From Turritopsis dohrnii (lineage: Eukaryota > Cnidaria > Hydrozoa > Anthoathecata > Oceaniidae): DNA of 64,000 nucleotides. The DNA lies in the NCBI GenBank assembly GCA_027922465.2, contig BQMF02000017.1:1178001-1242000 (forward strand). The letters run 5' to 3'. Each line of letters opens with the position of its first letter. The first letter of the stretch is position 1. This document shows positions 1,696 through 60,908 of the stretch, piece after piece. Both the position numbers and the translations under genes were made by a program. Under the pieces are notes generated by a model. It did no database searches. It worked only from the letters and a program-made list of their open reading frames with translations, and was not told the origin of the DNA.

Positions 1696-3112
1696 GTGAC
1701 GATTCGAGGGAAAATCACTACAAGCGATAATAGCGCTTTATACAAAGTGCTAATAGCGCTAAAAGAACAATGGGTTTTAGCGCTAATTTGTTCTTATTTA
1801 CAAATGTAGTAACAATATTAGTGATAAATTTAGCGCTTGTAGTTTTATCATTATCACTATTATCGCTTATAAATATCGCTCTTTACGAAAAAGCGCTAAA
1901 TTTTAGCGATAAGTATTTGATTTATCACTAAATTATTCGTATAATAATGTTGGTTCAATTAATTAATGTGAAACGGACAGAATATCAAATGAGATGAAAG
2001 TGAAATCGTTAATATCATTAATATCCTCTAAGGGCACAGATTACCGTTATTATCGTCAAAAAGTTTTGTTCAAGTCTTTTGTTTATACAATTTCACATAC
2101 CATGTGTTGTTTTATGAAGTTCTCAAATAACAGTGATTTAATTATTTTTTCGCCAAATAGCAATAAATACAAAACAAACTCGCTTGTTTTGACATGATAA
2201 ACTCTAATTCATTGTGTTATGACTGAACAGACGAGCGGACATATTTCTCGAGAAATAAAAAGTTTCCGAAACGTTTTTTATTTTATTTGTTATTCCGGCA
2301 CCTTCAGCACAAATCTGAAAGCCAATTTAAAATACTGTGTTATTCGATTTGGCAATGTATTATTTTGAAACATTTACAGGTAGCACCTGCTTGTGTATTA
2401 AATTGAACTTAATTGACTGGTTCCTATATTCAGTTGGAGATTAAAGATACAGAAGTTAGTTCGAAAGCAACCACAAGTAGAAACCATCTGCGATAATTCT
2501 TTTTTCTAGATTGTTGGATTGCCATTCTATAAGCTCTTGGGAGAAAACTTTTACAATATTAAAGACACATTACATTAAAAGTTTTTTCGATAGCAAAACC
2601 TTTATTATTATTCTTTCGAAAGACATTTCACTTGCACTGGGTGGAGATGTACCCTTAATTAAATTGATCACAACGTTTTTAGTGATCATTATTGACTTCT
2701 GTCACTGCATCGATAATGTCTTTAGGTTCAATATTAGGATGAAGTATGAATGTAGGAAGCGAAAAATAAAAACATTTTAACTTCGGCTTGACGAGTTGCG
2801 AAAGTTCTCTTTTGAAATACTCACTTTCGTTTAAATAAAATAACACCTGTTTCCTTCGGCTTTTCGTGAAGTTTATGTGAAAGATTGTCTGAAGGTTGTG
2901 TTGACACACACAAGTAAACTTACGTATAAAAAAGATGGAAAGATGAATAATATTTATGATGAATATATTAGCAACAAATTAATTATTCTTGAAAGCGCTT
3001 TTTGTGCTGCTTATATTTATCGCTAAGTTCGTCAATGTTAGCGATAAATTTAGCGCTACTTCTTGATGCGAGCGCTATTATTGCTTGTAGTGATTTTCCT
3101 TCGAATCGTCAC
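1696..3112. mobile_element. GTGAC-family DNA element, AGCGATAA subfamily
   Basis: This 1417-bp non-autonomous element has inverted ends starting GTGACGATTCGAGGGAAAAT and is flanked by ATAT target duplications (1692-1695, 3113-3116). Inside both ends are iterated AGCGATAA/TAGCGCT motifs. AACAAT lies at 1766-1771, 70 bp from the left end. The shared internal core module lies around 2380-2505 (hairpin-like CAGGTAGCACCTG followed by AGTAGAAACCATCTGC). No transposase ORF is visible. Confidence 0.85.
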
Positions 3113-3306
3113 ATATAACATTCAGAATGATTTCACGCGCATCCGCAACATTGACGTCACATCATTGACAGTTATTGCAAAGTTGTTTAGTGCTAGTTTG
3201 GGACCAAATTGAATGAATTTTGCAAAAAAAAACTTTGGAGGCTGTTACTGATATTAAAGACTGAGAGTTAAGATGAAAAAAATATCTAGCGTTCGTTCTC
3301 CTTTAA

Positions 3307-3498
3307 AGGGGGGTATACACGTAAAGATTCTTGAAAAATTTTCTTTTAGGCTTTTGTTTCACGCACGCTTCTCTCTCTTCAAAAAACAAACTCACATTCC
3401 CACCTGTTGTCATGAATAATAATGAATTGATTTACAATTCATTTCTAAAGCCTGGAAACACCTGGTTAAAACAAAAATTTTTACGTGCATACCCCCCT
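3307..3498. mobile_element. Small MITE with TAA duplication (PIF/Harbinger-like)
   Basis: A 192-bp element with ends AGGGGGGTATACACGTAAA and the inverse TTTACGTGCATACCCCCCT, flanked by TAA on both sides (3304-3306, 3499-3501). A 3-bp TWA duplication is typical of PIF/Harbinger MITEs; that family assignment is inference. Confidence 0.7.
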
Positions 3499-4321: not shown

Positions 4322-5809
4322 GTGACGATTTCAGGGAAAATCATCACTAAGGATTTATCGCTATCTTGCATTAAATTAATGCAAAATTATCGCATCACAT
4401 ATCGCATCATTATCGCTTCACCAAAACTAATTAATTCGCAAATATCGCATAATTATAATAATTTTCTAATAACCAATCACAGCGGAGAATCATTTGGTCG
4501 GCAATTTCAGCTGCCATTATAAAAAAACGAGTGTTCAGAGTGTTGTTTAGACTAAAGGCTGTTTTTGGAAAATTTAATGCGGAAAGAAACGGACGAGTAC
4601 TACAGAAAGCCGTGATTAGATCTTTCGCTAATGTAAACGTAGCTTAATTAATAACCAGAATTTATAACAAAAGAAATATACTTGCATGAGCTGCAAAATA
4701 TATTTTAAAGACAAATGTGCGCCAAGAGAGAAAAAAAAAATCTTTTTCGAAAAGGAAATATAAATAAAAACTAAAAATCGTTGCTATCGCCGTAATAAGA
4801 TTGTTTGTTTACATAGTAGATTCCATGTTTCATATACGTGACCGTCCAAGGGATTTTGATAACAAACGATATAAATAAAATAAAGTGACGGTATTTTGTT
4901 AGAATATGAAAAGTAGGATTCACCTACTTACTACGTTTCGTTTCGTTGAACGTCTATGTATGTTTATATTTTTCATATTCCCATGCACCAGTTTTCGAGG
5001 TTGGAACATAACTGGGAGTATTATATCCAATTGCTATTTTGCCAAATAAAAATAAAAAGTTTTTTTATTGATAAAGATGTCTACACTCTCAAAAGATGTT
5101 GTTGTTATCGCGACTTCAGCATTATTTTGAAAACTCAATGTGACGGATGTATAATTACAGGTAGCACGCGTTCGTGTTAAATAATGAACTGATTACCTGG
5201 TTCTTATTCACTAAGAGATAAAATAAACAACAGTTTGTTCTCAAGTTGCTACAAATAGAAACCGTCTGCTATAATTCTTTTTTTTGTTTAAGTTGTTCCA
5301 CCGCTGTTCACATAACAGAACATGGTTCACATTCAGTTTAAGAAAAAAGAAAAAAAAGTTTGTTTTAAAGTTACTACCAATAGAAACCGTCCCTTACAAT
5401 TCTTTTTTGAGTTGTTCGATCGATATTTTGGTTTATTCCTTGGGGGAAAATCATTACTGACGAATTTATTATTACATTCTGATATTCGGAAGTATATCAT
5501 GACTAATAGCCGTTATGGTAAAATGAATTCCAAAACACAAATTTGTATTTGTTTTTTCAACAAGCGCATTAATTACTTCACGGTAATTATGTAAAATCTA
5601 AATCGAATGTATAAATTAAAAACATAGAATTTTATCGCAAGAAATATCGCTTTAAGCAAAGAAAATAAGCGATAAATTATCGCATCTTTTATCATTACTG
5701 ACGAATCTATCGTTTAATGATGCGATAAATGTGCATTAAATCTATTGTTTTGGTGCGATAATAATATGCGATAAATTATCTAAGTGATGATTTTCCCTGA
5801 AATCGTCAC
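4322..5809. mobile_element. GTGAC-family element, ATTATCGC subfamily
   Basis: This 1488-bp element has ends GTGACGATTTCAGGGAAAAT and its inverse, flanked by ATAT (4318-4321, 5810-5813). TTATCGC/GCGATAA motifs repeat inside both ends. ATTGTT at 5744-5749 is 60 bp from the right end. The core module occurs at about 5160-5280, with a partial second copy at 5360-5400. A solitary second left end of the family (CGTGACCGTCCAAGGGATTT, 4837-4856) is embedded within it. Confidence 0.8.
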
Positions 5810-5884
5810 ATATGATCATTCGATGATGTAAAACATCCCGCAAAGGAGTTAATACATTCTTTGTTTCTAATTATTTCATCTACA

Positions 5885-6103: not shown

Positions 6104-6104
6104 G

Positions 6105-6335: not shown

Positions 6336-7057
6336 ATGATTCTAATGATTTCATTATTAGAAAAATTTGTTTCTAGGTTGTGTTCACTTTTGTTTGATAT
6401 AATGGTTTATATTTGAGAAAAACATTTAAAAGAAAGATCTCAAGTTATCTTTGATAGATAGATAAACTCATATATTTCCATCAACCTTCCTTTATTGTTT
6501 TTTAAAAATAAATTCTTGTTTCTTACTATAATAACATCCTCATGTGTATCATATGTATAGTCAAAACACAGGTGTTTCGAAAAGAAAAAACAACAAAAAA
6601 TTGTTTGTTGCGTATCAATTAAAAGCAACGGAAGAAGAAAAATTTGTGGAAGGGAAATCCCCCGTTTCAATCAATGAATGATAAAATAGGGAAAGCCCCC
6701 AAAACATAAGACAAGTAGTGTACAAGTATAATATTAGTATTATAAAATTATGATAATTGGTCAAACGTCTAATTCTTCTTAGAATTAGATTTTTCATCGC
6801 GCACTTGAATTACTTGTACGGCCTCAGAGCTGGCACTCTAACAAACAGAAAATATTGTGATTTGATGTAAGACAAGGATCGCACGCGCAAAATGAGTTTA
6901 TGCAATCGAACAGCTCGCGTGAAGTATTTTGCGCGAGCGATTCAACACTCGTGCGCTATTTTATTCCAGATACAGCCTGGCTGTCACATGATTTGATTCG
7001 CCCAATCAACGGCAGCGGCCGTATGACTTGCTGAAGTTAAACCTCCTGAAAATTTCA

Positions 7058-7163
7058 ACTAAAGGCCCGTTTCCACTTTATTCAACTCATCTCAAATCTA
7101 AATGAAAAATTAGTTCGCTTATATGTGCGACGACAGCGAACGATGTGAAAACCGGCCTATAGT
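7058..7163. mobile_element. About 100-bp MITE, copy 1
   Basis: Inverted ends ACTAAAGGCCCGTTTCCACT and AACCGGCCTATAGT. Further copies lie at 16135-16240 and 49342-49441, with half copies near 25120-25145 and 26235-26262. All are inside GTGAC-family elements at a homologous position, so this small unit is now carried as part of the larger family. Confidence 0.6.
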
Positions 7164-7627
7164 TCCGTCTTCCTTGCTCAATAGCTGCCGAAGCAAGAGC
7201 TCTTTAGCTCTTTATTATGAGGCATCGTTTTTAAAAATAAAACGTTTTCAATGATGAAACGTTTAAAACATTTTATTTAAACGTTTAAACGTTTTCTCTT
7301 TCGAATTCTTGAAACGTTTTTGAACTCTGGCAAAAACATTTAAACGTTTTTATAGAAACGTTTTTAAACGTTTTTTTCTATTGTTTTTGCAACGTTTAAA
7401 CGTTTCTTTAAAAAACGTTTTATCGCTTGTTATCAAAATCCCTTGGACAGTCACAATTTTTTTTAACTGTCACAGTGGACAGGGCACTAAATTTAGTCCG
7501 GGGCTGTAATAAAACAATGACTAATATCACTAATACAGTTTATTTTTTCACTGAATGTTTTTTTCCATTTTGAAACAAAGAAACACTAATCCAATAAGTC
7601 AAATTCCTCTTCATCATCTTCGCCATC

Positions 7628-8330: not shown

Positions 8331-8341
8331 ATTTTTATTAA

Positions 8342-15175: not shown

Positions 15176-16538
15176 GTGACTGTCCAGGGGATTTTGATAA
15201 CAAACGATAAAATGTTTAAACGTTTTTCATTTTGTTGAAAAACATTTTTTCATTAACGAAAAAACGTTTTCTTGTTATGTGTGCAACGTTATAAACGTTT
15301 TCATAAACGTTTTTTAAAAACGTTTTTTTAAAAATGTTTTTATAAAAAACGTTTTTACATTAATCCATTTTTTTGCAAAAAACATTTTCAACTTTAACTG
15401 TCCAGCGGATTTTGGTATCGTTGCATTTTTCTGCAAATGTAAACAAGTTTTCGTGTCCAGCGGTTTGTTTATAATCACCTTCGTATGCGCCATTTTTGGA
15501 AAGTTCGTTATTAAAACCTGTTAAAATTAAAAAACTTTTCATCTTTTACTTCATAATTCTTTGATTTTATTTTGATTTTTAATGAACAAGGTGCGTTCTT
15601 TTGTTTTGATTGAGTTTAATGACGTCAATGTTCTTCAAGTGTGTACTATTTTAAATATTTTAAATATGCATTTGCAGGTAACACATGTAAGTATATTGGA
15701 ATACATTGATTACCTGGTTCTCATTCATTTAAAGATTAAAGAAACAACATCTGTTTTCAAAGTTTCCACAAATAGAAACCGTCTGCTATAATTCTATCGA
15801 TTCCATAATAGAAAGAATTTGATAGAATTGCTATTTTAGTAAATCCTCGGGAAAAGTGCATTTTCACTCGGCGAAAATAGTTGAAAACGGCTAATTATTG
15901 TAGAAACAGATCTGGATAAACCTTAATTTCTCTGTTTTAAGAGACATTTCACCTTCACAAAATTAAGATGCACTGTTAATCAAATTACTTGGTAACGATT
16001 TTAGTTATCTTTATGGACTTCATTTTGATAGCGTTTTCAGGTTCTGAGGCGATTGTCTGTCACATGATTTGATTCCCCCAATCAACGGCAGCGGCCGTAT
16101 GACTTGCTGAAGTTAAAACCTCCCGAAAATTTCAACTAAAGGCTAGTTTCCACTTTATTCAACTCAACTCAAATCTAAATGAAAAATTAGTTCGCTTATA
16201 GGTGCGACGACAGCGAACGATGTGAAAACCGGCCTATAGTTCCATCTTCCTTGCTCAATAGCAATTATTGTGAGACATTGTTTTTAACAATAAAAACGTT
16301 TTTAATGATAAAACATTTAAACGTTTAAACGTTTTTAATGTTCTGCATAAAACGTTTTATTTAAACGTTTAAACGTTTTCTCTTTCGAATTCTTGAAAGG
16401 TTTTTGAATTCTGGCAAAAATGTTTAAACGTTTTTACAAAAACGTTTTTAAATGTTTTTTTCTATTGTTTTTGCAACGTTTTAATGTTTCTTTAAAAAAC
16501 GTTTTATCGTTTGTTATCAAAATCCCCTGGACAGTCAC
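15176..16538. mobile_element. GTGAC-family element, AACGTTTAAACG subfamily, complete
   Basis: This 1363-bp element runs from GTGACTGTCCAGGGGATTTT to its inverse. Both subterminal zones are arrays of AACGTTTAAACGTTTT. ATTGTT at 16464-16469 is 69 bp from the right end. The core module lies at 15676-15795 on the + strand and the approximately 100-bp MITE at 16135-16240. The flanks carry an 11-bp direct repeat GTATAATGATG (15164-15174, 16539-16549) rather than the 4-bp duplication of other copies. Confidence 0.8.
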
Positions 16539-20212: not shown

Positions 20213-20215
<3 letters not shown>

Positions 20216-21094: not shown

Positions 21095-23917
21095 GTGACC
21101 GTCCACGGGAAAAAACTAACAATGGAATTATAGATGATAGATTATAGATTATAGATAAGAAAACAATAGAAATTATAGATAAATCTAATCTATAATCTAT
21201 AATCGATAATCTATAATTATAGATAATTATAGATTATAGATTATAGATTATAGATTAGATTTATCTATAATTTCTATTGTTTTCTTATCTATAATCTATA
21301 ATCTATAATCGATAATCTATAATTATAGATAATTATAGATTATAGATTATAGATTATAGATTATAGATTATCGATTATAGATTATCGATTATAGATTATA
21401 GATTAATCTATAATCTACAATCTAATTTATAAGTTATAGATTCTATCTAAACTATAACCTATGTCATCAATAGGCAAAATTCAAAAGCCCTTAGTTCTGC
21501 TTCGCGGTAAAGAGAGTCATGTCATGGGAACATAATATACGCCATATTATAATATGTACGTATAGGTATACAGTTATCCGCGCCCTATATGTGGTGTAAT
21601 TTAAATGCTACTTCGGCCAGGCCTCTTGGAGAAACGTCTTGTTTACTATAAGAGTGGTCATTTGTGTTAGTAATAGAATGCTCTTTAATCCAATGTTTGG
21701 CGGTCATTTGTGACATGTTACGTAACAAAAGTTCAAAACGTTGTACGATTATGTCGCAAGCATAGCATACTTTTAAGTATTAAGGAAGAGTAAGAAGAAG
21801 CCATTCTTCAAGGCGTAAAGGTTAATCAAAAAGTGATTAAAACTTCTCGTTATTCTCCGTTTGATTATTAAACTTATCTTTCTCTACCTTATCGACTTTC
21901 TTGATGTTTATGAACAAACATGTTTTAAAAAATCTTTTTCTGGTGGCATCAGTTGAATAATAAAAATAGACTTGGCCACCTGGTTCACATTCACTGACAA
22001 GACAGTTTGTTGAAAACCAAATTAAAATGAATGCTTCAAGTAGAAACCATCCGATTGTCTTCAAGAGTATTTTGTTACTCACTTGAGAATAAAGTCTTCG
22101 AAGCGGATGTTCGAAGTGTTGCACAATGCATACAAACACCAGTTACGTACATGTGCATAATCTTTTTCTTCCATTCCAAACAAGAAACATAACATGATAA
22201 ATAATTAATGACCTTTTTTACACAACAATTATTTTGTGAATTGTTCGAGTGAATTTGTGAAGCAAATAATCATGAATAGGTTATAGAAAAAAAAATGGAA
22301 AAATAGTGACCTCATCTGAAAGAATCACTGAAAATAGCAAATCATGTGAAAGACCTAAATGGTTTCATCAAGAAAAACGTTTCTGACAGAACTTTTACTT
22401 CTATTAAGCAGGCCTTGTCAGGAGAATTCTTCGAGGCGTGCGGTTGTTCGCACGCCTGTTTTAACGTTTTTTATATGTGGCGTGCGATCCACCGCACGCC
22501 TGAAATTTTGTATGTCTGCCTAATCTTTTACAGACAAGTGGGGGACGTTTAAACTTGTGAACCCCAAACACAAGGACTGGCGTCAATACAATAAAGGTTG
22601 ACTCTCGCAGTCTTAACTTTTCTTGTCTGATAATGTTTAAACCTGAAGTCCTCTGTGGCTAGAGAATAAATCTTTCAATAAGAGGACTAGTGGGGTCGTC
22701 AAAGTATAATAAATAATCTTTGATCTTTTGAGAAAAGAAATGAAAATTCATTCATTATCAAACATTGATCGACTGCACAACGTAAAAAAGTTTTGAAAAA
22801 AATGATCATTCATTTTCATTCATTTTAAGACGTCACGATAGTATTCCCAAAAGCTGTCAGCTGTCTTTGAAAATATTTAAGCACGAGAAGAAAAAAATTT
22901 TACGTGCTTCATTCAAAAAAATATCTATAAGCAAAGACAGGTGACAATTTCTGTTTCTATATTGCGAAACATGCTGCAAGGTGATGTGATATAAATTGAT
23001 AAACACGTTTTCGAATGTAAATTTCATATTCGACTTTTTTTAATAACACATGAAAGAAATTATGTATCTCTTTTCGTCGTGGTCGATAACGTCATCAAAA
23101 ACTTCTTTTCAAGAAGATTAATAGATAGAAAAACCTTTTTCATGAACAAGATTAATAAAAGCCTTTTTGATATACAACTGGTACTTTAAAGTAAACAAAT
23201 ATTTAAATAAATTCCGCTGCGTCTAGACAGTGCCAGCTGGTTTTTTTACGTTACAATAACGAATGTATATAATCTTTTTAAGCTTCGCACTCCATCACAC
23301 GCCTAAAAATTAGATGGCGTGCGATGATCGCACGCCATATTTTTGAAGTTTTAAATTCAGGCGTGCGGTAGTCGCACGCCGCCCTTTTTCTTCCTGACAA
23401 GGCCTAGGTTGACAATATTTCGCGAAAGAAAAATTAACCTGCGTCCCTGGTCATGTTTTTTACTCCCGAAAAATGGCAGAATGAAAACATAAACAAACTA
23501 AACGAACGAAATTTTTATGCGATAACGGTAAAATTTCCACAAGTCATTAAAGTTGTTATCGCTTGTTTCCTATAATTAGTGCATGGGCTACTCGGTTATA
23601 GATATCTTGTAAAGATTTTACATTAGGTTATAGATCATTACGTCGTAAAACAGTTTATGCATATCACGGATGACATTGCATTGACATTGCATAGATTATA
23701 GGTTATAGATTATAGGTTGTAGATTATAGATTATAGATTATAGGTTATAGATTATCGATTATAGATTATAGATAATCTATAATCTATAATAATCTATAAT
23801 CTATATTATAGATAAAATTTTACCTATACATAGATTATAGATAAAATCTAATCTATAATATAGGTAAATATAGATTAATCTATAAATCATTGTTAGTTTT
23901 TTCCCATGGACGGTCAC
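21095..23917. mobile_element. GTGAC-family element, ATAGATTATAG subfamily
   Basis: This 2823-bp element has ends GTGACCGTCCACGGGAAAAA and its inverse, flanked by ATTT (21091-21094, 23918-23921). Long arrays of ATAGATTATAG (21121-21440, 23690-23885) form the subterminal zones. The left one contains an inverted pair of about 70-bp arms (about 21150-21295). AACAAT lies at 21162-21167, 67 bp from the left end. A weak core module sits at 21960-22060. It carries a nested hAT-like element (22409-23406). Confidence 0.85.
22409..23406. mobile_element. hAT-like element with CAGGCCTTGTCAGG ends
   Basis: Inverted ends CAGGCCTTGTCAGGA and TCCTGACAAGGCCT. Subterminal palindromes GGCGTGCGGTTGTTCGCACG and GCGTGCGATGATCGCACGCC lie near both ends. 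It shares ends and interior (AAGGACTGGCG, ACTCTCGCAGTC) with the inverted copy at 51109-53158. Target duplications are not clear here. Confidence 0.65.
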
Positions 23918-25366
23918 ATTTGATGATGCTACAAGAATGAAATGTATAACTGAATCTTTGAAGTTTAAAATTCTTTGTACTAATGAGTTAGTGCAGACAA
24001 ATGTTTTGACTGGGCTACATGAATCAAGAGGGGATTTCTTAGAGGAAAAATACTCCAACCGATCGTTAAGATATGTGACGTTCCAGGGGATTTTGATAAC
24101 AAATGATAAAATGTTTTATAACGTTTAAACATTTTACACTTTGTTGAAAAACATTTTTTCAGTAACGAAAAAACGTTTTCTTGTCATGTGTGCAACATTG
24201 TAAATGTTTTCTTAAACGTTTTTTCGTTTTTGTAAAAAACGTTTTTCTTGTTTTAAAAAAAACGTTTAACTGTTTTTACATAAAAAAAGATGAAAAGGAT
24301 TTTTAAGTTTTGTTTACAAAAAGCATTTTCAGTTCCTCAACCCGCTCAAAACACTTTAGCCTTCCGCTGTCCAAAAGAGTTCCTAGTTAGTCTGGAATCA
24401 ATGGAAAATAGTCGTCCAAGGACCACGTCATAAATAATTACGCTACAAATTGTACTGAATAAGTGTAGTTTTACGTTAGAATTTAAATCCTGGAATATGG
24501 TTTAATCTATAATACATAATGTCAGTAATAAGTGGTGGCTGTAATTCGTTATTAAAACCAGTTATAATACATTTTGTATAACCATTCACTTGAGAGAAAA
24601 ACATTGACGTCATTAAACTCAATCAGAACAAATGAACGCACCTTGTTCATAAATACATTCGCAGGTAACACATGTAAGTATATTAATGCACTGATTACCT
24701 GGTTCTCATTCAGTTAAGGATTAAAGAAACAACAGCTGTCTCAAAAGTTACTACAAATAGAAACCGTCCGCTATAATTCTATTAATTCTATAACAGAACG
24801 AAGTTGATAAATTGCTATCTTGTAAATCCTTTGGGAAAAGTTTCATGTTTATTTTCGTAAAGATGTATTTTCACTTGGCGAAAATCGTGAAAATGGATAA
24901 TTTTTACAGAAAATGTCAGATCTGGGAAAATCTTCATTCTATTTTAAGAGACATTTCACTTTCACTAAGTGAAGATGCACTCTTAATCAAATTGCTTCAC
25001 AACGGCTTTAGTTATCTTTATGGACTTAATTTGGATAATGTTTTAAGGTTCTGAGATGAACTGATGAATGATTTGCGCGACTGAATCAAAAATCAGTGGG
25101 CTCATACGTGCGACCACAGCGATTGATATGGAAACCGGCCTTCAGTTCCGTCATCCTAGCAAAATAGCTGCCGGAGTAACTGCTCACCGACTATGAGTGA
25201 AAATGATTATTGTGTTCGGTATCTGGTCTTCCTTTAAGAATTTTGAGAATTAAATATCGTTTTTATGTTCTTTTTGAACTTTCTTAACTTTATGTTTACT
25301 GTGGAGCAACCTGAAAGTAAAAAATTCAAGTTTTAAAACAATAAAACGTTTATAACAATAAAACAC

Positions 25367-25730
25367 AGGGTTCGAATTAGAAACAAAAAGTCAATTCGCA
25401 AAAAAGTTTGAACAGTGACTTGCCTAAAAATCTTGTCGCCCACCATGGCTGGGCGACAAAGCAAATTTTGAACTTTAGACCCTAACGACGCTAGCGTTGA
25501 CAAAATAAAACAAGATTGTAAAGGGAGCTGGAAACTAAGATGCTTTTTAATTTCATTGAATAACACGAAAACAAGTCCTGCTTACGTTTTCATGTTCTTT
25601 CGTTAGGTGAAAAAATGAATTCATATAACGAAGGAAATTTCAAAATTACATTAGCAACGGTGGTCGTTCTCCATAGCAAAAGCAAATTGGTGAATAATCA
25701 CTTAATATCCATAAGTTATCCTTCATCGTC
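25367..25730. mobile_element. Truncated hAT-like element (relative of 62304-63652)
   Basis: Starts at the terminal CAGGGTTCGAATTAG and follows 62304 onward through GTAAAGGGAGCTGGAAACTA and the TAGCAACGGTGGTCGTTCTC block. The right end is absent, replaced by the second copy of the host element's core. Confidence 0.65.
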
Positions 25731-37200: not shown

Positions 37201-40200
37201 GTTATATTTTTTTTGGCTTTTTTCACTTGGGATACTTTTTATACATAAAAAGGTGTTCATCTAGGATAAATGAAGTATTTTATGCTCAAAATTAGAAAAG
37301 GAAATCCAAGGCTTAATTTCCCTTTAAAGATTATCATGAAGTGTAGCATCAGATTTTAACAATTTACCTCCATGTAATCTGTGGCAAAATTTTAAAGGCT
37401 GCTTAAAATATGGTCTAATGTTTTGTTATAATGAATGCAGATAAATGAATTGTAGGTAATTGCTGTCTTAAAGGGGAAGTTCGGTCTAATTTTTCACTTT
37501 TTATTTTTTCATTTGAACTTGTAATACTTTGAAAAGTTAGAAAGCCACTTTTTGAATTTTTGAAAATGCTCTTTTCGTTCAAAAGTTATTAAATCTTTTA
37601 GATGCTGAAAAATGAGTTTTTTCACAGTTGAAACAGATGTTCATTATGAATGATAAAATGACGTCACGTCGTGCAGAAAGAACTTTTAGGTGAAGAAAGT
37701 TTGTTATTGAACCTTCACACTATCAACAAAAACTCACTAGTAATACATCGTTTTATTTTTATTTTTTAATTCGAAAAATGCCAAGTTACTTTGCAACAGC
37801 TTGTACTAATCGGTGCACAAATTTTTCTTTCACACTTCACCAAAATTACAAGTCAAAGAGAATAACCAGAACTTCATAAAAGAAGGCTTTCCAACATAAA
37901 AATGAAGTGGACACTGCCAAAAGACTCAGGGTTTTATATCTTTACCCAACACTGATCAGATTGAGATGTATCGTTCTCTGCACATAATGTTTTGCTCCAA
38001 TCGACAACATTTTAGCAGGAATGGCATAGTGGTACGAAACTGACGCTATTAAACGCTGTTGATCTTCAATTTTTCTCTCCATGAACGGTACGTCTCATTT
38101 TTTCTCTCCATGAACGATACCTAACTCTCATTTTTATGTGGGAAAGGTTTCCTTGTCGCCCATAAAGCACACGATGGAATATCTTTATGTATTCCTTTAC
38201 CAAGTGTATTGTGTATCCACCAGGTCTATGTATTGTCTATACGCTGCAAATCTCAAAGTTCTCAACAAACAGAATTTTAGTCTTCATAGATTAGATGAAG
38301 GGAGGTTTTTATCAAATAGAAACATAAAACAAAACATAGTTTTTGTTCTAAGGAGACCAGAAAATGTTTCAACTTTGTTCCTTCCAGATTGGCTAAAACA
38401 AGCATGTTACTTTGCCTTTCATTTTTTAAATTTGTCGAAAAATGTGATGGATCGAGATAAAACAGGGAAATCTCTATAGAATTTAATTTTTGTACACTTT
38501 ATACATGCTAGACTGAAATAACAAACTTGGTGTGTATATCTGAAAAAATACGTTGCTTGTCAAATTTGCTGGTGGTGCCTACTCAGCCAACCTACTTCCG
38601 ACGACCCTTCTTCTGAACTTCATTGTGTCTGTACAGCACAAACTTTCCATGTAGGTATTCATAGGTTTGCAAAATTTTCCACAAAGATACCAACCTACGC
38701 TTCTTATAGGTAACGCATGCTGCTCTTCATCATTTTCGTTTCCTCTTCTTTGCTACTAACTGCTAAGATTTCTAACATCTCTTTGTGGTTCAAAATCAAA
38801 AGGTTTAAGTTATCAGGTATATCTTACAAACATTCATTATTTTCATCGAAAGATCTATTAGTTTCAGGTTTCAGCTATACGTTATTTAAAAAAAAAACCT
38901 TCTAAAAACACTTTATTTTGATAAAGCTTTTTTCTTTGCACATATGCTTTCTGCACGGAGTGACGTCACACGCTGAACAGATTAAAAATCTTATTTTTTT
39001 CAACAGGAAAACATGACGAAAAAACGTTTTTTGAAAGAAATGAACGAATAAGATTATTATATTTTGAAGTTTTGGTATGGAATAAAGCATCTCAGGCGAA
39101 AAATAATTAGGGCGAACTTCCCCTTTAATGATTTTATTATCATTAATAAGAAACGATTTGAGCACAATAAATTTGACGTTCCAGGGGAATTTGATAACAA
39201 ACGATATTAACGATAATTATTAACGATAATATCGTTAATAAAACAATAGAATTAGCGATATTATCGCTAATAATTATCGTTGCGTTATTATAGTTAATAG
39301 CGCTATTATCGTTAATATCGTTATTATCGTTAATATCGTTATATATATTATATATACTATAATTACGAAATTATAGTAAGAAAATAACTATATTTTTGAT
39401 ATTAACGATAATAACATTAATATTAAGCATGTGATCATTTTATTTGTGACAAGGAAACCATTTCGTGTATATTAATCTTTCTTTCGCTTGATTACGGCGT
39501 AAGAAATTCAATTTTAGAATTACCCTCAAGTAAAGTTTTAGAGCCCTGTGTAAACACAACTTTCAGACAACCTTTCACATAAACTTCATAACAAACTGAA
39601 GGAAAAGGTAATGTTATTTTTAAACGAAGGTGAGTATTTCAAAAGAGAACTTTTGTAACTCGTCAAGCCGACGTTAAAATGTTTTCATTCGTCCCTTCCT
39701 ACATTCGTCCTTCATCCCAATGTTGAACCTGAAAACATTATCGACGAAATGACAAAAATCAATAATGATCACTGAAAACGTTGCGATCAATTTAATTAAG
39801 GGTACATCTTCACCCAGTGCAAGTGAAATGTCTTTCGAAAGAATAATAATAAAAGTTTTACTATCGAAAAAAACTTTAATGTAACGTGTCTTTAATAATG
39901 TAAAGTTTTTTTTCCCAAGAGCTTATAGAATGGCAACCCGTCGAACAATTCAGAAAAAAGAATTATAGCAGACGGTTTCTACTCGTGCCTGCTTTCGAAC
40001 TTACTTCTGTATCTTTAATCTCCAAATGAATATAAGAACCAGCTAATTAAGTTCAATTTAATACACAAACGCGTGCTACCTGCAAATGTACATTTCAAAA
40101 TAATACATTACCAAATCAAATGACACGGTAATTTAAAGTGGCTTTTCAAATTTGTGCTGAAGGTACAGGAATAACAAATGAAAAAAAAGTGCTTTGTTAT

Positions 40201-43200
40201 TTCTAGAAAAATATATGTCCACGTGTCATAATTGAATGAATCAGAGTTTATCATGTCATGAACAAGCGAGTTTGTTTTGAATTGATTGCTATTTGGCGAA
40301 ATAATAATTAAATCACGGTTATTTTAGAACTTCATAAAACGACACACGTATGTGAAATGTATAAACAAATGTCTTGAACAAAACTTTTTGACGATAGTAA
40401 CGGTAATCTGTGTTCTTACCATATTAACGATATTAACGATATTAGCGATATTAACGATAATAACGTTACTCTGTAGTTCCATTAACGATAATAACGATAT
40501 TAACGTTAATATCGTTTGTTATCAAAATCCCCTGGAACGTCACAAATGATAGTCCAGTAATATATGTGACATGGAAAGTGAAAAGGGACCATTTGCCAGA
40601 AAATTACGCCTGTTTACCGAAATAAATTCTGCTGACTAGGCATTTTCCATGACAATTCAATGTAACATTACGCCGTACCAAAGACAAGCCACTGCAATTT
40701 TTCTTACCGACGTGTAAGACGTATAGTGTGAGACATAAGGCGTAAGGCCTAAGACATATAGCGTAATACATTAGACGTTTAGTGTAAGAGATAGCTAATG
40801 AATTATTTTGTATAACACTACCTGTTACACATTTCTTATAACAAAGCATAGTCACAAGAAAAAGAATAGTCTGGAAAATGCGGCCCTAAACGACCGATTT
40901 GCAGTGAGATGTTGCAATTTGAACGGCCCGCACAATTATGGTGCAAAAAACAAGCAGGAGTAGCAGCAAGACAAGAAGATTTATTTTCTGGAGATACTCC
41001 TTGATGCAATTTTTGCGGCTATTGATCACGATCTGAAATCAGTAAGTGGTCAGTCAGATGAGGGATGTATTTCAGTTGTTGGTGATATGCCTTATGACTC
41101 TTCTTGTTGGGCATCGTTTACTTGTAAACATTTCAAGAAAGGTTTGCCTGCTGGTAGAACGTGTTCTAACTCCTGGTTTAATTTCCAAACATGATAAATT
41201 CTATGTCCTCTAAAATTTCAGAAAAAATCCTTCACCCGTTTTTGAAAGGAAAATCCTGGAAAAAACTGTTCGATGAGGGTTGTTATCCTGACCTACAGTT
41301 AATAAAATGTGATGTTGTTTGGCTTTATACTTTCAAAGATCATCATGGAGATGCTGATAAGTTTTATTCAAAAATTTATACATGTGCATCGAACAAGACT
41401 GAAGATTTGTTTCAAGGGATCAGTAAGAAGTGTTCTGTAGTTGTGGGCTTTTAAATTGTAAATCATATTTTGGCTCACTTAACTGATGTTAGAAGCTTTC
41501 AAGAAGAATTTTAACTGCAAAGATACTGAAAGATTTTCAATTATTGCTTTGAATGGATATGTATTTGGGAATATATATCAATGAATACGTTTCAAGAAAG
41601 CTTAATAATCGACATTGTTTATCAGTTCTCTTGCTGGAAAATTTGACGATATCACTGCATGTTTTCTGGAGCACAAACTGGTTGACGTTCATGATTGAAA
41701 TGGATTTTGGAATGTACCTCCTAATATATTTTTACTGCTGTTGACAACAAGGAAAGCACTTGGTGAAAGATTCCTACATCCTTGACTTATTTCTAAAATA
41801 AGGACCAGAGATGACCATGTTATGAAGAAAGAACCTTCAATGAATTTACTTGAAAATTTGCTCATGCTGTACATTTGCACAAGAACATTTTCTTTTAAGA
41901 AAGATAAACAACACAAGATGAAATCTGACACAAGATGAAATCTGACAAAACTAGAACGAAATTGTTGCGGACTTATATTGAAACGAAATCATTGAACTTG
42001 GATATTCAAGGACACTGAAGCAGCCTCTGAAAACAGCTATTTTTATAGCTATATACATAATCATAAAAGCATTAATTGGGTACACTTTCATGTAAGACCC
42101 TGTGTTTTCATTGTTCTCATCCCCTACACCCCTCAAAAGTCTGTTTTAGTGGTTAAATTAAACCTAAATCTCAACCTATGTGCCATGTTACTGAGAGATA
42201 ATAAAAATGGCTGAGATAAAAGTTTCTCTAGGCAGAAGTACTCCCAAAGTGGTTTTTTTTACGTAATTATCTCCATCATGACTAGCTTGTCTTAAAGGGA
42301 AATTAAGCCTTTATCAACAACTTTTTATATTAGCTGCAGAAAGGTCTCATTGATCTTCTGTGACCATTAAAAATTATTTTAAATGATAACTATACTCAGT
42401 TTTTCGTTATTTAGTATCTAACAACGGACGCCATTGCAGTGCTCTGCGATAGAAATTTTGACGTCACAGCGCGATCGCTCTTTTTGTAAGGATTACATAA
42501 ACTACAACATTTTGTTTTTGTTGATGAAAGTTCTTGTGTTCTTTGTGAAATAAAACCTTTATTAAAAAGTATTTCGTTTTAGATTTATAGCAGGTATATG
42601 TGCGTCGGTGAGTTTTTGAACAAATGTGTATATTTTAGATGTATAAAAAATGAAATCTTCAGTATGACTGTTTTTGTTTTTCTTGAATCGTTAACGATAA
42701 ACTTATTTTACATTTTGCTGTTTCTTGATGTTTAAGATTGTTATGTTATGTTCGTGTTGTCTTTGTTGTTTTTCTACCGTTTCTTCTATCTTTAGAACAT
42801 AGTCGTAAAAAACATGTCATCATGTGCTGCCTACGTCTGATGTTTCTGCAAATGAAATTCGCTCTGTGACGTCATGATATTTATAACGAAAGCTGTAATG
42901 GCGATTTAACTAAGTTGTTTTTTTAGCAGTTTTTTTCATTTGGAATACCTTTTATACATAAAAAGGTGTTCCTCTAGGATAAATGAAGTATTTCATGCTC
43001 AAATTCAGAAAATAAATTTTAAGGCTTAATTTCCCTTTAAAACCAAAACATTCCAAAACAAATAAAGAAATTGCATAGACATAGCAGTTTGGATTCTAGC
43101 TTTGCTATCAATAAAGTTCCTTGTGAACAGAATAATTTATGGATAAGGTATTTATTTGCTTTAAGTGTTTCAATTAGTTTCTGATGAAGATGGGGAAGGG

Positions 43201-46200: not shown

Positions 46201-49200
46201 AGGTGTAAATGGAGGACTTCCATCATCAGCTTTCTTGTGAACTTTGTATAAGCCATAAAGTACTATAAAGTAGGTAATAATTTGGAAATGTTGACGTTCA
46301 TTATCAGTTTAGCCCCACTCAAATTGCTTTTGCTTTTGTCCAAGAAAAAACAATGGAAAATGGTCTTTCAAGGACCATGTCATAAAAAGTTACACTTGCT
46401 TTCCGTAATAGATTCTGCTGAATAAGTGTAATTTTAAATTAAAATTAAAGTTAGAATCAAAATTAATCCTGAAATTAGGTGTAATCTGTAATCCATAATG
46501 TAAGCAATAACAAGCCACTGCCATTTGTTGTTAAAACCGGTTTTAATACACTTGTAAAACTATTCATTTGAGAGAAAACAAAATATTGAGTAAAAGTAAA
46601 AAATTACCAGAGTAAGGCATAAAAAAGCATAATACTTAATCCTTTTATGTTATGGAATGTAACATCATAAGTGATAACTAGAATGTAATAAAGAAATGGT
46701 TCCTGTTTTGCAAAGCATAAATCAATTAGCCTGTTATTCACTGTTTGTGCCCAAATTTTAATAAAAATGTTTTATTATTTTTATCAAAATTTATGCTAAG
46801 CTTTTTTTCTATTGTTTTTTCCAACATGTTTAAGGCTTTTTGAAAATGGTTTTACCATTTTTGTTATCAAAATCCACTGGAGCGCCACTAATAATGATGA
46901 TGAAAAGAAATAGTTTATACATGTAAACATAACATTGAAAACATTAATGCAAACATGAAAAGTATTGTAATTTCATTATTGAATATTTGTTGCTTTTTCA
47001 ACTCATTATTGTCTATTGTTTTTCTTTCACAAAGAAAGAAGTAAATTCCTTCTCTGTCACTTGTTTTGCAAGAGGTAAAAGCAAAGGTAATTTGGGGGCC
47101 TTTTCTGAATTTTTGGGTCAGCTTGCATTTACAACAGAAAGGAACTCAGTGTTCATATTGGTTGAAGCTGCCTTCCATTCTGACATTTTTAAACATTGAA
47201 GTAGGTACCTGTCTATGGTCAACATTAAGATTTTGATCAAGAGCTGCAAGCTTTGGTAAATGGTGGATTTTGATTGAATTGAATTCTTCTAGATGTGTTG
47301 TAAATATGTTTTCTTTAAATGTTTTTGCAGTTATGTCAGCAAAGGTTTCACTGATTTCAAAGCTTTGTTTGATAGAGAATTGTCTGTTAATCATCATTCT
47401 TTTCATACTTTTAAGTTGCACATTTACTAAAATATTTATAATGAGTGACAATTGATCGAATAATTATATTAATATTGATTAATTAAAGAAATATCTTGAT
47501 ATGTGACATTCCAGGGGATTTTGATAACAAATGTAAAACGCTATGTAGTTGTATAACATTCTAACATTGTTCAATGATATCCGCACACAATTATTCTAAC
47601 AATTTCTATTATTCTTTCTTTTGTTCTTTTTTTTGTTCTTTTTATTTTCACTGATGACTATTGTATAGTGAAGTGTAATTGAAAACATATAACATAAAAT
47701 TGGAGTCAAACATCAATTCTAATGAAAATCTTGGAAATGTTTCATGATAAGTTTTTTCTTTATCTGATCTGTGTGTAATCCTGGTGTTTAATTTTAATTA
47801 ATGTTTAATCTTACACATTCAAAACAAATCAAAGAAATCATTTTCTGAAGACATTATGAAAATAAAATTTTAGGGTTAAATTCTGTTCAGTGCAATTCAA
47901 TTTTTGTTATTTCTAGCATTCCATTATGGGTCGGTGTATTGATAACTATTTTCGACACTTTCGTATTTCTTTTCCTGGATAAATATGGTTTGCGCAAGTT
48001 AGAAGCTTTTTTTGGTTTCTTAATCACTTGTATGGCAATAAGCTTTGGTTATGAGGTACCTTTGTTTATCCTACTAATGTATTGTTTGCAGCAGTTGGAT
48101 CTTGTATATTAAAAACTTAATTTTTTAGTATTTTATTGTACTTCCTGATCAAGAAAAGTTACTGAAGCACATGTTTCTACCAACTTGTGAAGACTGTAAT
48201 ATGAATGTTGTAAAACAAGTATGTAAACTATTTTCAAATTCAAGTTTCTTTCAATTTTTTCCTGACAGTTTGCTAATGTGAATTTGCATCAGCAATGTTG
48301 AGTGAAAATTTGTTATGTGTAAAGTAATAGTTAATAGTTTTCCATCCCTGTTCAATATTAGGTTTTTACTGTTACATTTGTAGGCTGTGGGTGTTGTAGG
48401 AGCAGTCATTATGCCACATAACTTTTACTTGCATTCTGCTTTAGTGAAGGTAAACCTTATTTTAAGTTGACTTATTCTCTATTTTAATAGTTGGTGTATG
48501 TCTGATAATCGACTGTTATATAACTAAGTAATAAGTAATATAACTAAGAGTTGCATTGTGCTGACGTCAGTAATGAGTATTAGAACAATAAGATAATGTG
48601 GTAAACTAATAAGATTACATATGATAGTTCTCTAGTGGTAATTCCTCGTGAAAAGCAGCTGACTTTATTCGTTATTACTCCTGGAATCAGACTTCCAAAT
48701 TACATCTGTTATTAAGCAATTGCTCCATGCATTAGTGAAAATAATCATACACATCATTGTCACTGTAAAATTTTATATAAACAAACAAACAAATATAAAT
48801 GAACAAACAAGTTCAGCATTAAAAATTCTTTAAGACTCAAAAGCTCTCCCTAGGTGAATTCCTTGTTTTCACCTTGTTCTGGCAGTTCCTGATACATAAT
48901 ATGATATCAAAATTTGAGTCATCTGGGCTTGAATGAGCTTACATCATCAGTAATACACTCATTGAATAAACAAATTAAAAGCATCACAAGTGGACTGAAA
49001 CAGATATGTGACTGTCCTGGTGATTTTGATAAGAAAATAATAAAACGTTTTTCAAAAAAACATTTAAACGTTGCAAAAACAATAGAGAAAAACGTTAGAG
49101 AAAAACGTTAGAAAACGTTTTTACAAAATTTAAAAAACGTTTCAAGAATTCGATAGAGAAAATATTTAAATGCTTAGTAAAACATTTTATGCAGTTACAT

Positions 49201-52200
49201 TAAAAACATTTAAACATTTTATCTTTGAAAACGTTTTATTGTTTAAAAGCATTGTATCAGTTCAAAAAGAACCTAAAAAAGATATACTGAACACAATCAT
49301 TTTCACTCATACTTCGACCGCTATTTAGCTAGAAAGATGACACTAAAGGCTGGTTTCCACTTCCTTCGCTGTGGTCGCACGTATGAGCAAACTAGTTTTT
49401 GTTTGAGTTGTGTGCGAATGAAGTGGAAACGGGCCTTTAGTTGAAATTTTTGGGGTTTAATCCGGTAGGTCATAGGGCCGCTGCCGCTGATTGGGCGAAT
49501 TAGGTCATGTGACAGCCAATGGCCCCAGAACTTGAAAACCTTATCAAAACGAAGTCCATAAAGATTACTAAAAACATTACGAAGCAATTTGATTAAGAGT
49601 CCATCTTCATTTTGTGAAAGTGAAATGTCTCCTAAAACAGAATAATTGAAGCCGGTTTTCCACTAGGCGAATTTATTCGCGCGAAGCGACTTTTTTCGCG
49701 GCGAAAAAAGTCGCGGTAAAAAAAATTGATTTCCACTAGCAGTACGAAAGTGCGCCAAAAATCAAACCATTTTGTAAACATGAAAAGAACAAGACGTTCA
49801 TTTCTGTTAAGAAAACTCTTTGTAATAAAGTTATTATAACTTCAAAAATGCAAGAAAAGAAAAGAAAAATATAAAAAGAGATATTGGGTACGACGCCTAT
49901 ATCAGGAGCGTAAAACAGGGTTTACACATTTCAGGTAATTGAAGAAACTTTGAGTTGCTTCCACAAATCGCATGATTGTGTAGGCAACTTTTTAAAAACA
50001 TGCTTTTAATTGTTTAATTGTTAAACGGAAGTCTCTATTGTTTTCAACAAACTCATTTGATGAATTGAAAGAAAAAAAAACATCTTTTTTGAAGAAACTT
50101 TGTTCATAATAAAATAGTTGTTCCATCAAAAAAATTATGAAGAAATTTGAACGTTCAGCTGAAACAAAAAAAAAGCATTCCAAAAACACTCCTTTCTTGA
50201 AGCCACAGCTTTGCTCAAACGGTTCTTTTTTCCTCTTTTCTTAAAACGTCTTGTTAATTAAATTTAACTGAAAATTTATACAGTTATACGGACTTGTAAT
50301 GTTTCTTAACTAAAAATATATCAATAATCAATCAATCATTAAATAAATTAAAAACTTCTTGCTAGCACGACGAGATGGAGCAATCTGATTGGCTTGCGAC
50401 TTTTTTCGCCACAAAAAGTAGAAATGGATTCTACTTTTTTTTTCGCTGAAGCGAATCGCTGACTTCAGCATGATATGACGCAATATCACTACTGCGCATG
50501 CTTAGCGGCGAAAAAAGTCGCTTCGCGCGAATAAATTCGCCTAGTGGAAAACCGGCTTAAGGTTTTGCCAGATCTGTTTCTATAAAAATTAGCCGTTTTC
50601 AACGACTTACATTGAGTGAAAATACATCTTTACGAAAATAAACATAAAACTTTTCCCCAAGGATTTACCAAAATAGCAATTCTATCAAATTTGTTCTATT
50701 ATAGAATTAATAGAATTATAATGGACGGTTTCTATTTGTAGAAACTTTGAAATTTTAAAACATTGACGTCATTAAACTCAATCAAAACAAAAGAACGCAC
50801 CTTGTTCATAAAGTAAAAGATGAACAGTTTTTTATTTATAGCTGGTTTTAATAACGAACTTTCCAAAAATGGCACATTCGAATGTGAAAAATTATAAACA
50901 AACCACCAGAAACTTCTTCCAACAAAACTTGTTTACGGTTATAGCGGTAATCCAATGATATCAATATCTGTTAGACGATCACTAATGATTAATGTCAATG
51001 TTTGTTACTAGAAAACGTTTTGAACAAAGTGAAAAGCGTTTAAACGTTATAAAACATTTTATCATTTGTTTCGAAATCCCCTGGAGAGTCACATATAGAA
51101 ACTATATGCAGGCCTTGTCAGGGAGAAAAAGGCCGGCGTGCGACTACTGCACGCCTGAATTGAAAAATTCAAAAATATGCTGTGCGATCATCGCAAATGG
51201 TCTGATTTTTAGGCGTGCGATGGAGTGCGATGCTTAAAAATTTAATAAACCCCTTTAAAAAATTTATGTACATTCTTCTAACATAAAAAACAGCTGGTAC
51301 TATCTAGACGCAGTGGAATGTATTTAAATATTTGTTTACTTTAAAGTACCAGTTGTATATCAAAAAGGCTTTTATTAATCTTATCCTTGAAAGAAAATTT
51401 TTCTATTTAACGATGTCGCAATGCCCTGTCGTCCAGACTTTTCTTAAGCTGCTTGATAACTAATGAATTTTTATTCCTTTTCTCAAAAGAGCAAGCTGAA
51501 ACACACATGACGCTTTTAAAGGAGAAATACAAAAGCAAACTTTTGAAAATAATTTTTTCCTTAATAATGGTTACATTACATGTATGATAAAATGTGTTCT
51601 TAAACAGATTGCTTGTCTGCGTTTCTTCTTATATTTTAACGATCTCGCTGCAGTCTTTTCTATATGTAAATCAGTAGCAGTGTGCATAGTGTGCACCCCG
51701 TTCGTTTTCTTTAGGTGGGACTTGGAAATTTTTGGATTTCAGGGGGGGGAAAACAGGATTAGGTGGGACCTACTTTTTTCAGGTGGGACTATCGTGGTTT
51801 TGTAATAAAAATTGAAATGTGTCATCAATTAAAGTGCATCATCAATTTTTTCTGTTTCTCAACAAGAACGAAGGAATTTGTCTACCATTACATTTGAAGC
51901 TTTTGATTTGTTTTTTTTTTTAATTATAAGACAAGGATAGTAATTGCAAGGCAAATGGGTACTGCAGTTATGCCTTTTTAACCTTTAGAAAACTGTTTTA
52001 CAAACTTTCAATCACCCATCCTAGGACTCGAACCTAGAAACAACTACTATCTTTTTAACTCATCTGATTAAAAACTCTTGTGAATCTACTCTGGTGGCTT
52101 TGGCTTTATCTGTTATAATACGTCTCTTGCTAAACTACTAGTACAGAGCTTTTTCTGAGCAGCCAAATATATCTTGTAAGCTTCTTTTTGTTCATATTTT

Positions 52201-53908: not shown

Positions 53909-53943
<35 letters not shown>

Positions 53944-57991: not shown

Positions 57992-58921
57992 TCAGGTAAC
58001 ACAGCCTGTCCCTTGTCTTTTGGTCGTCATACGTAGACAAAACGGGTAGATGTTTTTCTTGGCTCTTATATCTGTTAATGTCACCTTTCCTCGAGTCAAT
58101 TCTTCTTTAAAGATTTCTCGAAGAAACGTTTCTTGTTCTTCATTAAGGTTTTCTTGATTGGGCATGTGTCTCAACACTGATCTAAGAAGGCTGCTTGTCT
58201 CAGCTGCCTTCTTTGATTTATCACTTAGGTAGTAAATCTTCTTTGCAGTCTCCTTCGAGTGACTCATAAGATTAGCCAAGTCGTCTTCTTTTCCAGGGCA
58301 ACTATCACGGGTTCTGGAAATACATGATTTACGTATTAACATGGCGTTCATTCTCATTCTGTACGGTGTTTTGCCGACAGCTTTATTCCAAAACGAATTC
58401 AGTTGGCCAGTGACCATAGAGGACCAAAGTTTATTTCCAGCCCAACTTACGAACACGGTCGACTCCGGGATCGAACCAATTCCATCCAGCCTGTTTCTAA
58501 AGTTACCAATGTAGGTTCTGCACGCCTGATATAATTCCAGTGAAAAGCATAGATTTGCAGGGCCAGCTGTCGCAATGGTCTTATGTTGAAATACGCTGAC
58601 CATGAAAGTTTGTCCATGGCACTTTCCAAGGTTAAACTCCTTGAGAGTCATGTTGGCTATTGCACCAGTTCGTGAGCCGTTTTCCAAGCAAAGATAAGTG
58701 ATAATGTAATCACGAACGAGAGTGAAAAGTTTCAACGTAGCACTTTCATTCGCTGGGTGCAAGAGAATACTTTTACATTCAGTTACGATTGCTGATGTAT
58801 CCAATCGTTTAACTTCATCGGCAGTTATGAGCTGCGATAAAGATGCCGTTTGTTTTTCCCATTTTCGCATATTCGTTTTTTTCTGGTATACAGGTAACCA
58901 ATTGTTCATGATTGTTATCAT
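57992..58921 (-). CDS. Tyrosine recombinase-like catalytic region (open part)
   Basis: 309 codons from ATG 58921. Tyrosine recombinases cut and rejoin DNA through a Tyr-phosphate intermediate, using R...(H/K)xxR...(H/W)...Y residues. Here R lies in GSRTGAI, a RKS..SR block replaces the usual HxxR, H lies in MSHS and Y in KIYYL. The C-terminal tail is basic (TTKRQG). The N-terminal domain lies upstream in other frames, so the open part is a fragment. Confidence 0.55.
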   Translation of the reverse strand: MITIMNNWLPVYQKKTNMRKWEKQTASLSQLITADEVKRLDTSAIVTECKSILLHPANESATLKLFTLVRDYIITYLCLENGSRTGAIANMTLKEFNLGKCHGQTFMVSVFQHKTIATAGPANLCFSLELYQACRTYIGNFRNRLDGIGSIPESTVFVSWAGNKLWSSMVTGQLNSFWNKAVGKTPYRMRMNAMLIRKSCISRTRDSCPGKEDDLANLMSHSKETAKKIYYLSDKSKKAAETSSLLRSVLRHMPNQENLNEEQETFLREIFKEELTRGKVTLTDIRAKKNIYPFCLRMTTKRQGTGCVT

Positions 58922-59528
58922 AACATCACATTCATACGCAAATGTTCTGGTATCTCTTGAGGTGATTCACATTGTATGAACTTGTAAAAGAATCTCAACG
59001 ATGAAAGATAACTCTTTATCGTCCCCACACTTCTTATGCGTTCAAAAGATGTTAGCATTTGTCTCTTATGACTTTCCTTTGAAATAATGCCACGAAATCG
59101 TTGTCTCCAATACTATTCAAAATACATGCGACTTCAGCTGCATGTTGTTTCGCTGAGCGGAGCGGTTTCGCTTTCCCATCAACAGTACAGAGCCATTTCG
59201 TAAAATCTATCATTATATTTGTTCAGGTTAAACTTTCATCGATAAATTCACTACATCATCTTCATTTTCATCGGAAGAATTGACATCTACTTCAAATACT
59301 GGGGAGTGTTGCTCAGCATCAAATTCTAAGATTTGCAACAGTTATATTAATTATCGAAAAACCCCACAGAAAATTATTTACCAAAACTCCTATGTACCTA
59401 AGTCATTTTTTTCAGTTTCAGTATAGTTTTCTTGAACTGCTTCGTCATCAGCTTCGACTTCTTTGCCCTCCTGTTGAATTAAGGAGGAATTATCTAATTA
59501 AAGACAAAAATCAAAGAGAACCATATAT

Positions 59529-60908
59529 GTGACGTTCCAGGGGAATTTGATAACAAACGATATTAACGATAATTATTAACGATAATATCGTTAATAAAAC
59601 AATAGAATTAGCGATATTATCGCTAATAATTATCGTTGCGTTATTATAGTTAATAGCGCTATTATCGTTAATATCGTTATTATCGTTATTATCGCTATTA
59701 TCGTTATATATATTATATATACTATAATTACGAAATTATAGTAAGAAAATAACTATATTTTTGATATCAACGATAATAACATTAATATTAAACATGTGAT
59801 CATTTTATTTGTGACAAGGAAACCATTTCGTGTATATTAATCTTTCTTTCGCTTGATTACGGCGTAAGAAATTCAATTTTAGAATTACCCTCAAGTAAAG
59901 TTTTAGAGCCCTGTGTAAACACAACTTTCAGACAACCTTTCACATAAACTTCATAACAAACTGAAGGAAACAGGTAATGTTATTTTTAAACGAAGGTGAG
60001 TATTTCAAAAGAGAACTTTTGCAACTCGTCAAGCCGACGTTAAAATGTTTTCATTCGTCCCTTCCTACATTCGTCCTTCATCCCAATGTTGAACCTGAAA
60101 ACATTATTGACGAAATGACAAAAATCAATAATGATCACTGAAAACGTTGCGATCAATTTAATTAAGGGTACATCTTCACCCAGTGCAAGTGAAATGTCTT
60201 TCGAAAGAATAATAATAAAAGTTTTGCTATCGAAAAAAACTTTAATGTAACGTGTCTTTAATAATGTAAAGTTTTTTTCCCAAGAGCTTATAGAATGGCA
60301 ACCCGTCGAACAATTCAGAAAAAAGAATTATAGCAGACGGTTTCTACTCGTGCCTGCTTTCGAACTTACTTCTGTATCTTTAATCTCCAAATGAATATAA
60401 GAACCAGCTAATTAAGTTCAATTTAATACACAAACGCGTGCTACCTGCAAATGTACATTTCAAAATAATACATTACCAAATCGAATGACACGGTATTTTA
60501 AAGTGGCTTTTCAAATTTGTGCTGAAGGTACAGGAATAACAAATGAAAAAAAAGTGCTTCGTTATTTCTAGAAAAATATATGTCCGCGTGTCATAATTGA
60601 ATGAATCAGAGTTTATCATGTCATGAACAAGCGAGTTTGTTTTGAATTGATTGCCATTTGGCGAAATAATAATTAAATCACGGTTATTTTAGAACTTCAT
60701 AAAACGACACACGTATGTGAAATGTATAAACAAATGTCTTGAACAAAACTTTTTGACGATAGTAACGGTAATCTGTGTTCTTACCATATTAACGATATTA
60801 ACGATAATAACGTTACTCTGTAGCTCCATTAACGATATTAACGATAATAACGATATTAACGATATTAACGTTAATATCGTTTGTTATCAAAATCCCCTGG
60901 AACGTCAC
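59529..60908. mobile_element. GTGAC-family element, ATTAACGATA subfamily, copy B
   Basis: 1380 bp, flanked by ATAT (59525-59528, 60909-60912). Both ends intact (GTGACGTTCCAGGGGAATTT). AACAAT at 59598-59603, 69 bp in. Differs from 39173-40543 by a few substitutions and changes in motif-array copy number. Confidence 0.9.

Follow-up and report, generated by a model that had tools for sequence, protein, structure and literature searches.

A box at one end of GTGAC-terminated DNA transposons in Turritopsis dohrnii is a candidate end-identity site

The two ends of the hAT transposon Hermes are dissimilar, and the excerpted account describes the BED domains of its transposase as bound at the left end and none at the right (PMC10368747). 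The ends of piggyBat are asymmetric and are needed together, the left one carrying an imperfect palindrome for which the excerpt of that report gives no right-end counterpart (PMC11707139). Sola2 elements, in the part of the published description drawn on here, have short, imperfect terminal inverted repeats (TIRs) of 12-21 bp and 4-bp AT-rich AWWT target site duplications (TSDs), given as ATAT, AAAT, and ATTT (PMC3627910), while IS3EU elements are summarized in an excerpt as DDE transposons with TA..TA termini and usually 6-bp duplications (PMC10045372). Here, we describe a group of transposons with GTGAC termini in a 64,000-nucleotide stretch of the Turritopsis dohrnii genome (G000:C17:1178001-1242000; the window) and across the whole assembly (435.9 Mb, 891 contigs). 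Judged from sequence, each element appears to have one end with an AACAAW box at 60-70 bp and one end without it. This box is probably the end-identity site of a DDE transposon group characterized by GTGAC termini, 4-bp AWWT duplications, and a probable DUF7869 transposase.

The AT-rich window (GC content, 33%) contains eight complete elements with inverted ends and GTGAC termini (one end reads TTGAC), as well as two incomplete ones (7454 and 46888). Each family carries an array of its own inside the TIR, and the families were named in this analysis after these arrays: ACGTT, CGATAAT, GCGC, TCGCA, and TAGATTA. The end of an element with the AACAAT/AACAAW box is called the A end and its partner without the box the B end; offsets of the motif are counted 0-based from the terminal base of the element. 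Six of the eight complete elements have identical 4-bp flanks (ATAT in four, ATTT in one, and AAAT in one). The elements and their boxes are as follows.

1696..3112, + strand: E1, GCGC family; A end left, offset 70; TIRs, TSD ATAT/ATAT
1766..1771, + strand: E1 A-end box AACAAT, context AAAAGAACAATGGG
4322..5809, - strand: E2, TCGCA family; A end right, offset 60; TSD ATAT/ATAT
5744..5749, - strand: E2 A-end box, inside AAAACAATAGA
6978..7454, - strand: A-side piece of an ACGTT element (7454); further piece at 3498-4065, B end not found
7380..7385, - strand: A-end box of the 7454 element, offset 69
15176..16538, - strand: E3, ACGTT; A end right; flanks ATGT/GTAT, no matching 4-bp duplication
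16464..16469, - strand: E3 A-end box, offset 69
21095..23917, + strand: E4, TAGATTA; A end left; TSD ATTT/ATTT; TIR CAC on A, CAT on B
21162..21167, + strand: E4 A-end box, offset 67
24075..26874, - strand: E5, ACGTT; A end right; flanks ATAT/AAAT
26800..26805, - strand: E5 A-end box, offset 69
39173..40543, + strand: E6, CGATAAT; A end left; TSD AAAT/AAAT
39242..39247, + strand: E6 A-end box, offset 69
46753..46888, - strand: A end of a decayed ACGTT-type element (46888), box offset 72
46811..46816, - strand: A-end box of the 46888 element, an intact AAAACAATAGA within a decayed array
49008..51092, + strand: E7, ACGTT; A end left; TSD ATAT/ATAT
49078..49083, + strand: E7 A-end box, offset 70
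59529..60908, + strand: E8, CGATAAT; A end left; TSD ATAT/ATAT
59598..59603, + strand: E8 A-end box, offset 69

An earlier note on this DNA had reported AACAAT about 69 bp from one end of every GTGAC-family element, and all ten of its distances were correct on recount: 70 (1696+), 67 (21095+), 69 (39173+), 70 (49008+), 69 (59529+), 69 (7454-), 69 (16538-), 69 (26874-), 72 (46888-), and 60 (5809-). The word "every" holds for the ends in the window and fails for the ATCGATTT arrays outside it. That the flanking motifs differ completely between subfamilies was an overstatement, as the first 79-80 bp of the A end, up to the motif, are 76-79% identical between ACGTT and CGATAAT. Moreover, the 39173 and 59529 elements are copies of one family (96%), so that the ten ends represent about five families, or four if the related ACGTT and CGATAAT are joined. 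The main clue, which the note overlooked, is the confinement of the box to one end: it is absent from all eight partner ends in the window (3112-, 4322+, 15176+, 23917-, 24075+, 40543-, 51092-, and 60908-).

In a scan of 6-mers within one 13-bp offset window, AACAAT alone was common to all five array families; the next five 6-mers, each present in four of the five, overlap the AACAAT site, and at the opposite ends no 6-mer was common to more than three. Among 200 random groups, the best sharing of a 6-mer was four of five families, reached once. In 1,000 dinucleotide shuffles with either end allowed, a 6-mer was found in all five families in 2 shuffles and in four of five in 164, while an 8-mer was common to four of five in 1. 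The conserved core is wider than AACAAT, being AAAACAATAGA in four of the five window families and AAGAACAAAAGAAA in a further family, CGTTATAT. Genome-wide, pairs of AACAAT spaced 16 bp start to start were not enriched (335 + 351, against 403 + 408 reversed).

The commonest TIR pattern has 1,305 matches in the genome and none for its reversed control, and its first 100 matches in contig order were examined. AACAAT or AACAAA lies at exactly 69 in 38 of these ends and at 67, 68, and 70 in one each; nine further AACAAW matches lie at other offsets between 28 and 141, an off-peak rate that predicts 0.1 at offset 69. The ends are not all independent: over bases 28-110 there are 86 distinct sequences among the 100, and 27 of these have the word at 69. 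Among 25 neighboring plus/minus pairs, some of which fall inside the window itself, the box was on one end in 24 (left in 13, right in 11), on both in none, and on neither in one, where one end reads AACAACAG. The window pair 4838/7454 is a false element, 7454 being part of a split copy; without this pair, 23/24 pairs are one-sided.

The other three TIR patterns gave the same picture, again with no matches for the controls. For GCGC (170 matches), 20 loci were fetched, and all seven close pairs, one of them E1, have the box on one end at offset 70; a 23-kb pair on contig C10 is also one-sided but was left out of the count. For TCGCA (90 matches), the ten pairs that come first in the list once the window's own pair, C61, and C71 are passed over are one-sided without exception, at offset 60. 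For TAGATTA (177 matches), nine of ten pairs sampled from 26 are one-sided, with offset 67 in eight and 60 in one, and in the tenth the array is disrupted and the word lies at 41. Pooled over the four end classes, exactly one end is boxed in 50/52 pairs (both, 0; neither, 2), or 49/51 without the false pair. Over the four TIR patterns, the group comprises at least 1,742 exact-match ends (1,305 + 170 + 90 + 177). The TAGATTA TIR itself differs by end, reading CACGGG on A and CATGGG on B in 25/26 pairs, and on contig C37 (G000 C37:790307-795730) GCGC-family ends on a single strand recur at intervals of ~1,330 bp and may form a tandem array. Pattern scans of viral contigs gave 0 matches; a single Arthrobacter match in a scan of genome contigs was judged to be chance on reading.

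Families differ in how often they hold the word. In a tally of 101 distinct ends (the window plus loci to L071, with families set by simple word counts), AACAAWAG at 52-79 was present in 17/39 CGATAAT, 9/20 ACGTT, 7/17 CGTTATAT, and 2/3 TAGATTA ends and in 0/1 GCGC (which reads AACAATGG), 0/10 ATCGATTT, and 0/11 other ends. Because AACAAA stands at offset 69 in the CGTTATAT family, the core is better written as AACAAW in an A-rich context. A within-subfamily comparison of the word with neighboring bases, as the earlier note had proposed, had a mixed outcome. Mismatches per site in the motif, upstream, and downstream (non-CpG) were 0.014, 0.012, and 0.077 for CGATAAT (n = 13); 0.030, 0.147, and 0.071 for ACGTT (n = 6); and 0, 0.024, and 0.058 for CGTTATAT (n = 10). 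In the five ACGTT ends of the window, mismatch cells numbered 0/55 in the motif versus 15/150 and 34/215 outside it. Both sets were picked for holding the word, which favors the motif; the conservation test alone thus does not show constraint. The weight is carried by the between-family comparison and by the A/B pairing, for which ends were picked by terminal repeat alone.

Read from A to B, the ACGTT, CGATAAT, and TCGCA bodies are collinear wherever they match. The GCGC body of E1 is inverted relative to these (86% over 916 bp to E8), as are the CGTTATAT bodies, and the GCGC and CGTTATAT bodies are mutually collinear in two short alignments (72% over 102 bp and 68% over 155 bp); E4 has no body match to other window elements. 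Homologous bodies thus occur in both orientations relative to A, which argues that the mark belongs to the end. Through the box, A ends align with A ends and B ends with B ends; A and B ends can also be aligned with each other over the common TIR (46-99 bp). End identity thus survives a flip of the body.

A gene for DUF7869, a domain of unknown function, is found in seven long copies from three families and reads away from A in 7/7, with A read directly in one and inferred in six. The boxed end thus appears to be the one that lies upstream of the transposase gene. DUF7869 is a candidate transposase with a predicted DDE-transposase fold, which suggests that this domain may be a DDE transposase. 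In the titles and abstract openings searched, DUF7869 is nowhere called a transposase and the motif is undescribed, although papers from 2024 on that concern DUF7869 only could escape such a search. On contig C653 (G000 C653:19995-44064), six DUF7869 matches follow one another at a spacing of ~4,650 bp, perhaps as a tandem array. Other genes were considered as the transposase. An integrase-like gene (PF24764) and a HECT-looking gene in locus L034 were ruled out: both belong to a nested IS3EU insertion, which has a 6-bp duplication of its own and for which L028 shows the empty site. The nested copy (L034, 894-5282; TSD ATAAAC) carries the PF24764 transposase and a second gene, presumably HECT-like, that has no Pfam match. 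The K1-K3 open reading frames (ORFs) of L032 were set aside as well; in L041, a relative of K2 is itself interrupted by a GTGAC element, which makes K look like a different gene.

Collectively, an end-identity site is favored by an offset that is constant within families, by the limitation of the box to one end, by the position of the gene relative to A in seven elements, and by persistence of the box across differing arrays and body inversions. The DNA-binding part of the transposition complex would bind the box some six helical turns away from where cleavage occurs, and a box held at a set distance would let the complex load on A first and then capture B. An element lacking either type of end would not be mobilized, and selection on mobility would retain one A and one B end per element. 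The family-specific arrays may serve family-specific binding, with the box providing a shared architectural contact. The earlier proposal that the word is part of the transposase site stands to the extent that it is a fixed site in a transposon end, plausibly one for the transposition complex. It is possible, although we hold this only tentatively, that the DUF7869-family group obeys an A-by-B synapsis rule with a logic like the 12/23 rule of V(D)J recombination, in which a single box survives array replacement and body inversion. Helical phasing of the offsets, at 60 and 69-70 and perhaps also at ~80 where the ATCGATTT ends have a diverged AATAATCGG, is speculation.

Several points weigh against an end-identity site. 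The GTGAC family with ATCGATTT arrays lacks the word in all ten ends, the offset varies by family (60 in TCGCA), and in one TAGATTA copy it shifted to 60 after a 7-bp loss from the array. The box of the young families is not clearly better conserved than its neighbors, despite a test that favored it. Foldseek on its own gave nothing at E 0.001 or better for the DUF7869 model. With 23 kb between the ends of the C10 pair, the gene there may be part of a nested sequence, and long pairs on C78, C532, C272, and C167 have no listed DUF7869 match.

The side of the gene would also fit a promoter or regulatory element of the transposase gene, A being the upstream end in those seven elements, with the box simply inherited by non-autonomous copies. 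We consider this unlikely, since a promoter element needs no fixed distance from the terminus, and the box is retained beside inverted bodies and in families whose window copies lack an ORF of at least 120 amino acids. AACAAW resembles the core recognized by SOX proteins, a likeness that had led the earlier note to SOX/HMG factors, and a host HMG/SOX-class protein could bind the box and bend the A end. This is improbable: the conserved block exceeds AACAAT, reaching AAAACAATAGA or AAGAACAAAAGAAA, a host HMG protein is unsupported, and the excerpted description of Hermes ends gives no such site (PMC10368747). The weak excess conservation within families, and the relatedness of the ACGTT, CGATAAT, and CGTTATAT ends, would suit a functionless relic of common ancestry in families too young to have lost it; we regard this as very improbable, as the box has kept to its one-end rule (50/52 pairs) through changes of array, of part of the TIR, and of body orientation. 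An end-identity site thus remains our preferred reading, and it would provide a sequence handle on how a transposon distinguishes its two ends, in natural families that share the box but have different arrays, partly different TIRs, and bodies in either orientation.

Other features of the window were also recorded. A ~2.9-kb hAT-like insertion (4066-6977), with an 8-bp near-duplication and CAGNCTGTATC-type ends by eye, interrupts the 7454 ACGTT element and has E2 inside it. At 15394, 27484, 50982, and 4838, degenerate TIR copies lie 110-218 bp inside ACGTT B ends and a TIR copy lies within E2, a pattern that would be expected if B ends had been exchanged for new ones from elsewhere. At the A end of E4 (21127-21316), an inverted repeat with 94-bp arms (97%) doubles the box on the opposite strand, the inverted AAAACAATAGA copy beginning at 21283 on the - strand. 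Among six ORFs of E4 and E5 examined for coding remnants, there was one weak Pfam match, below its cut-off. A 309-amino-acid ORF (57992-58921) resembles a tyrosine recombinase by eye, with no Pfam match at E 0.001, and for the LINE protein of the window the only species-named relatives among the 120 matches listed are from Clytia and Hydractinia.

In comparison with known systems, the GTGAC elements can be set beside Sola2 by its published description. They share its 4-bp AWWT duplications (PMC3627910): the flanks of the 100 commonest-TIR ends are ATAT in 60, ATTT in 17, AAAT in 8, and other in 15, so that the three Sola2 4-mers account for 85/100, and flanks are identical in 21/25 commonest-TIR, 9/10 TCGCA, 10/10 TAGATTA, and 6/7 GCGC pairs. 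Against the short, imperfect Sola2 TIRs of 12-21 bp, the inverted similarity of ends here extends to ~42 bp in E1, E2, and E3 and farther where arrays match. The excerpted account of Sola2 describes no end-specific box (PMC3627910). IS3EU is linked to the group by the copy nested in L034, which fits IS3EU termini and duplication, but the GTGAC elements themselves differ from IS3EU in their GTGAC termini and 4-bp duplications. Hermes, as excerpted, is similar in having two dissimilar ends and differs in its 8-bp target sites and BED/hAT transposase (PMC10368747), and piggyBat is similar in its asymmetric ends (PMC11707139). The latter differs as a member of the piggyBac superfamily. The target of that superfamily is TTAA. 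By analogy with Hermes and piggyBat, as far as the excerpts describe them, asymmetry between transposon ends can be of the binding-complex sort.
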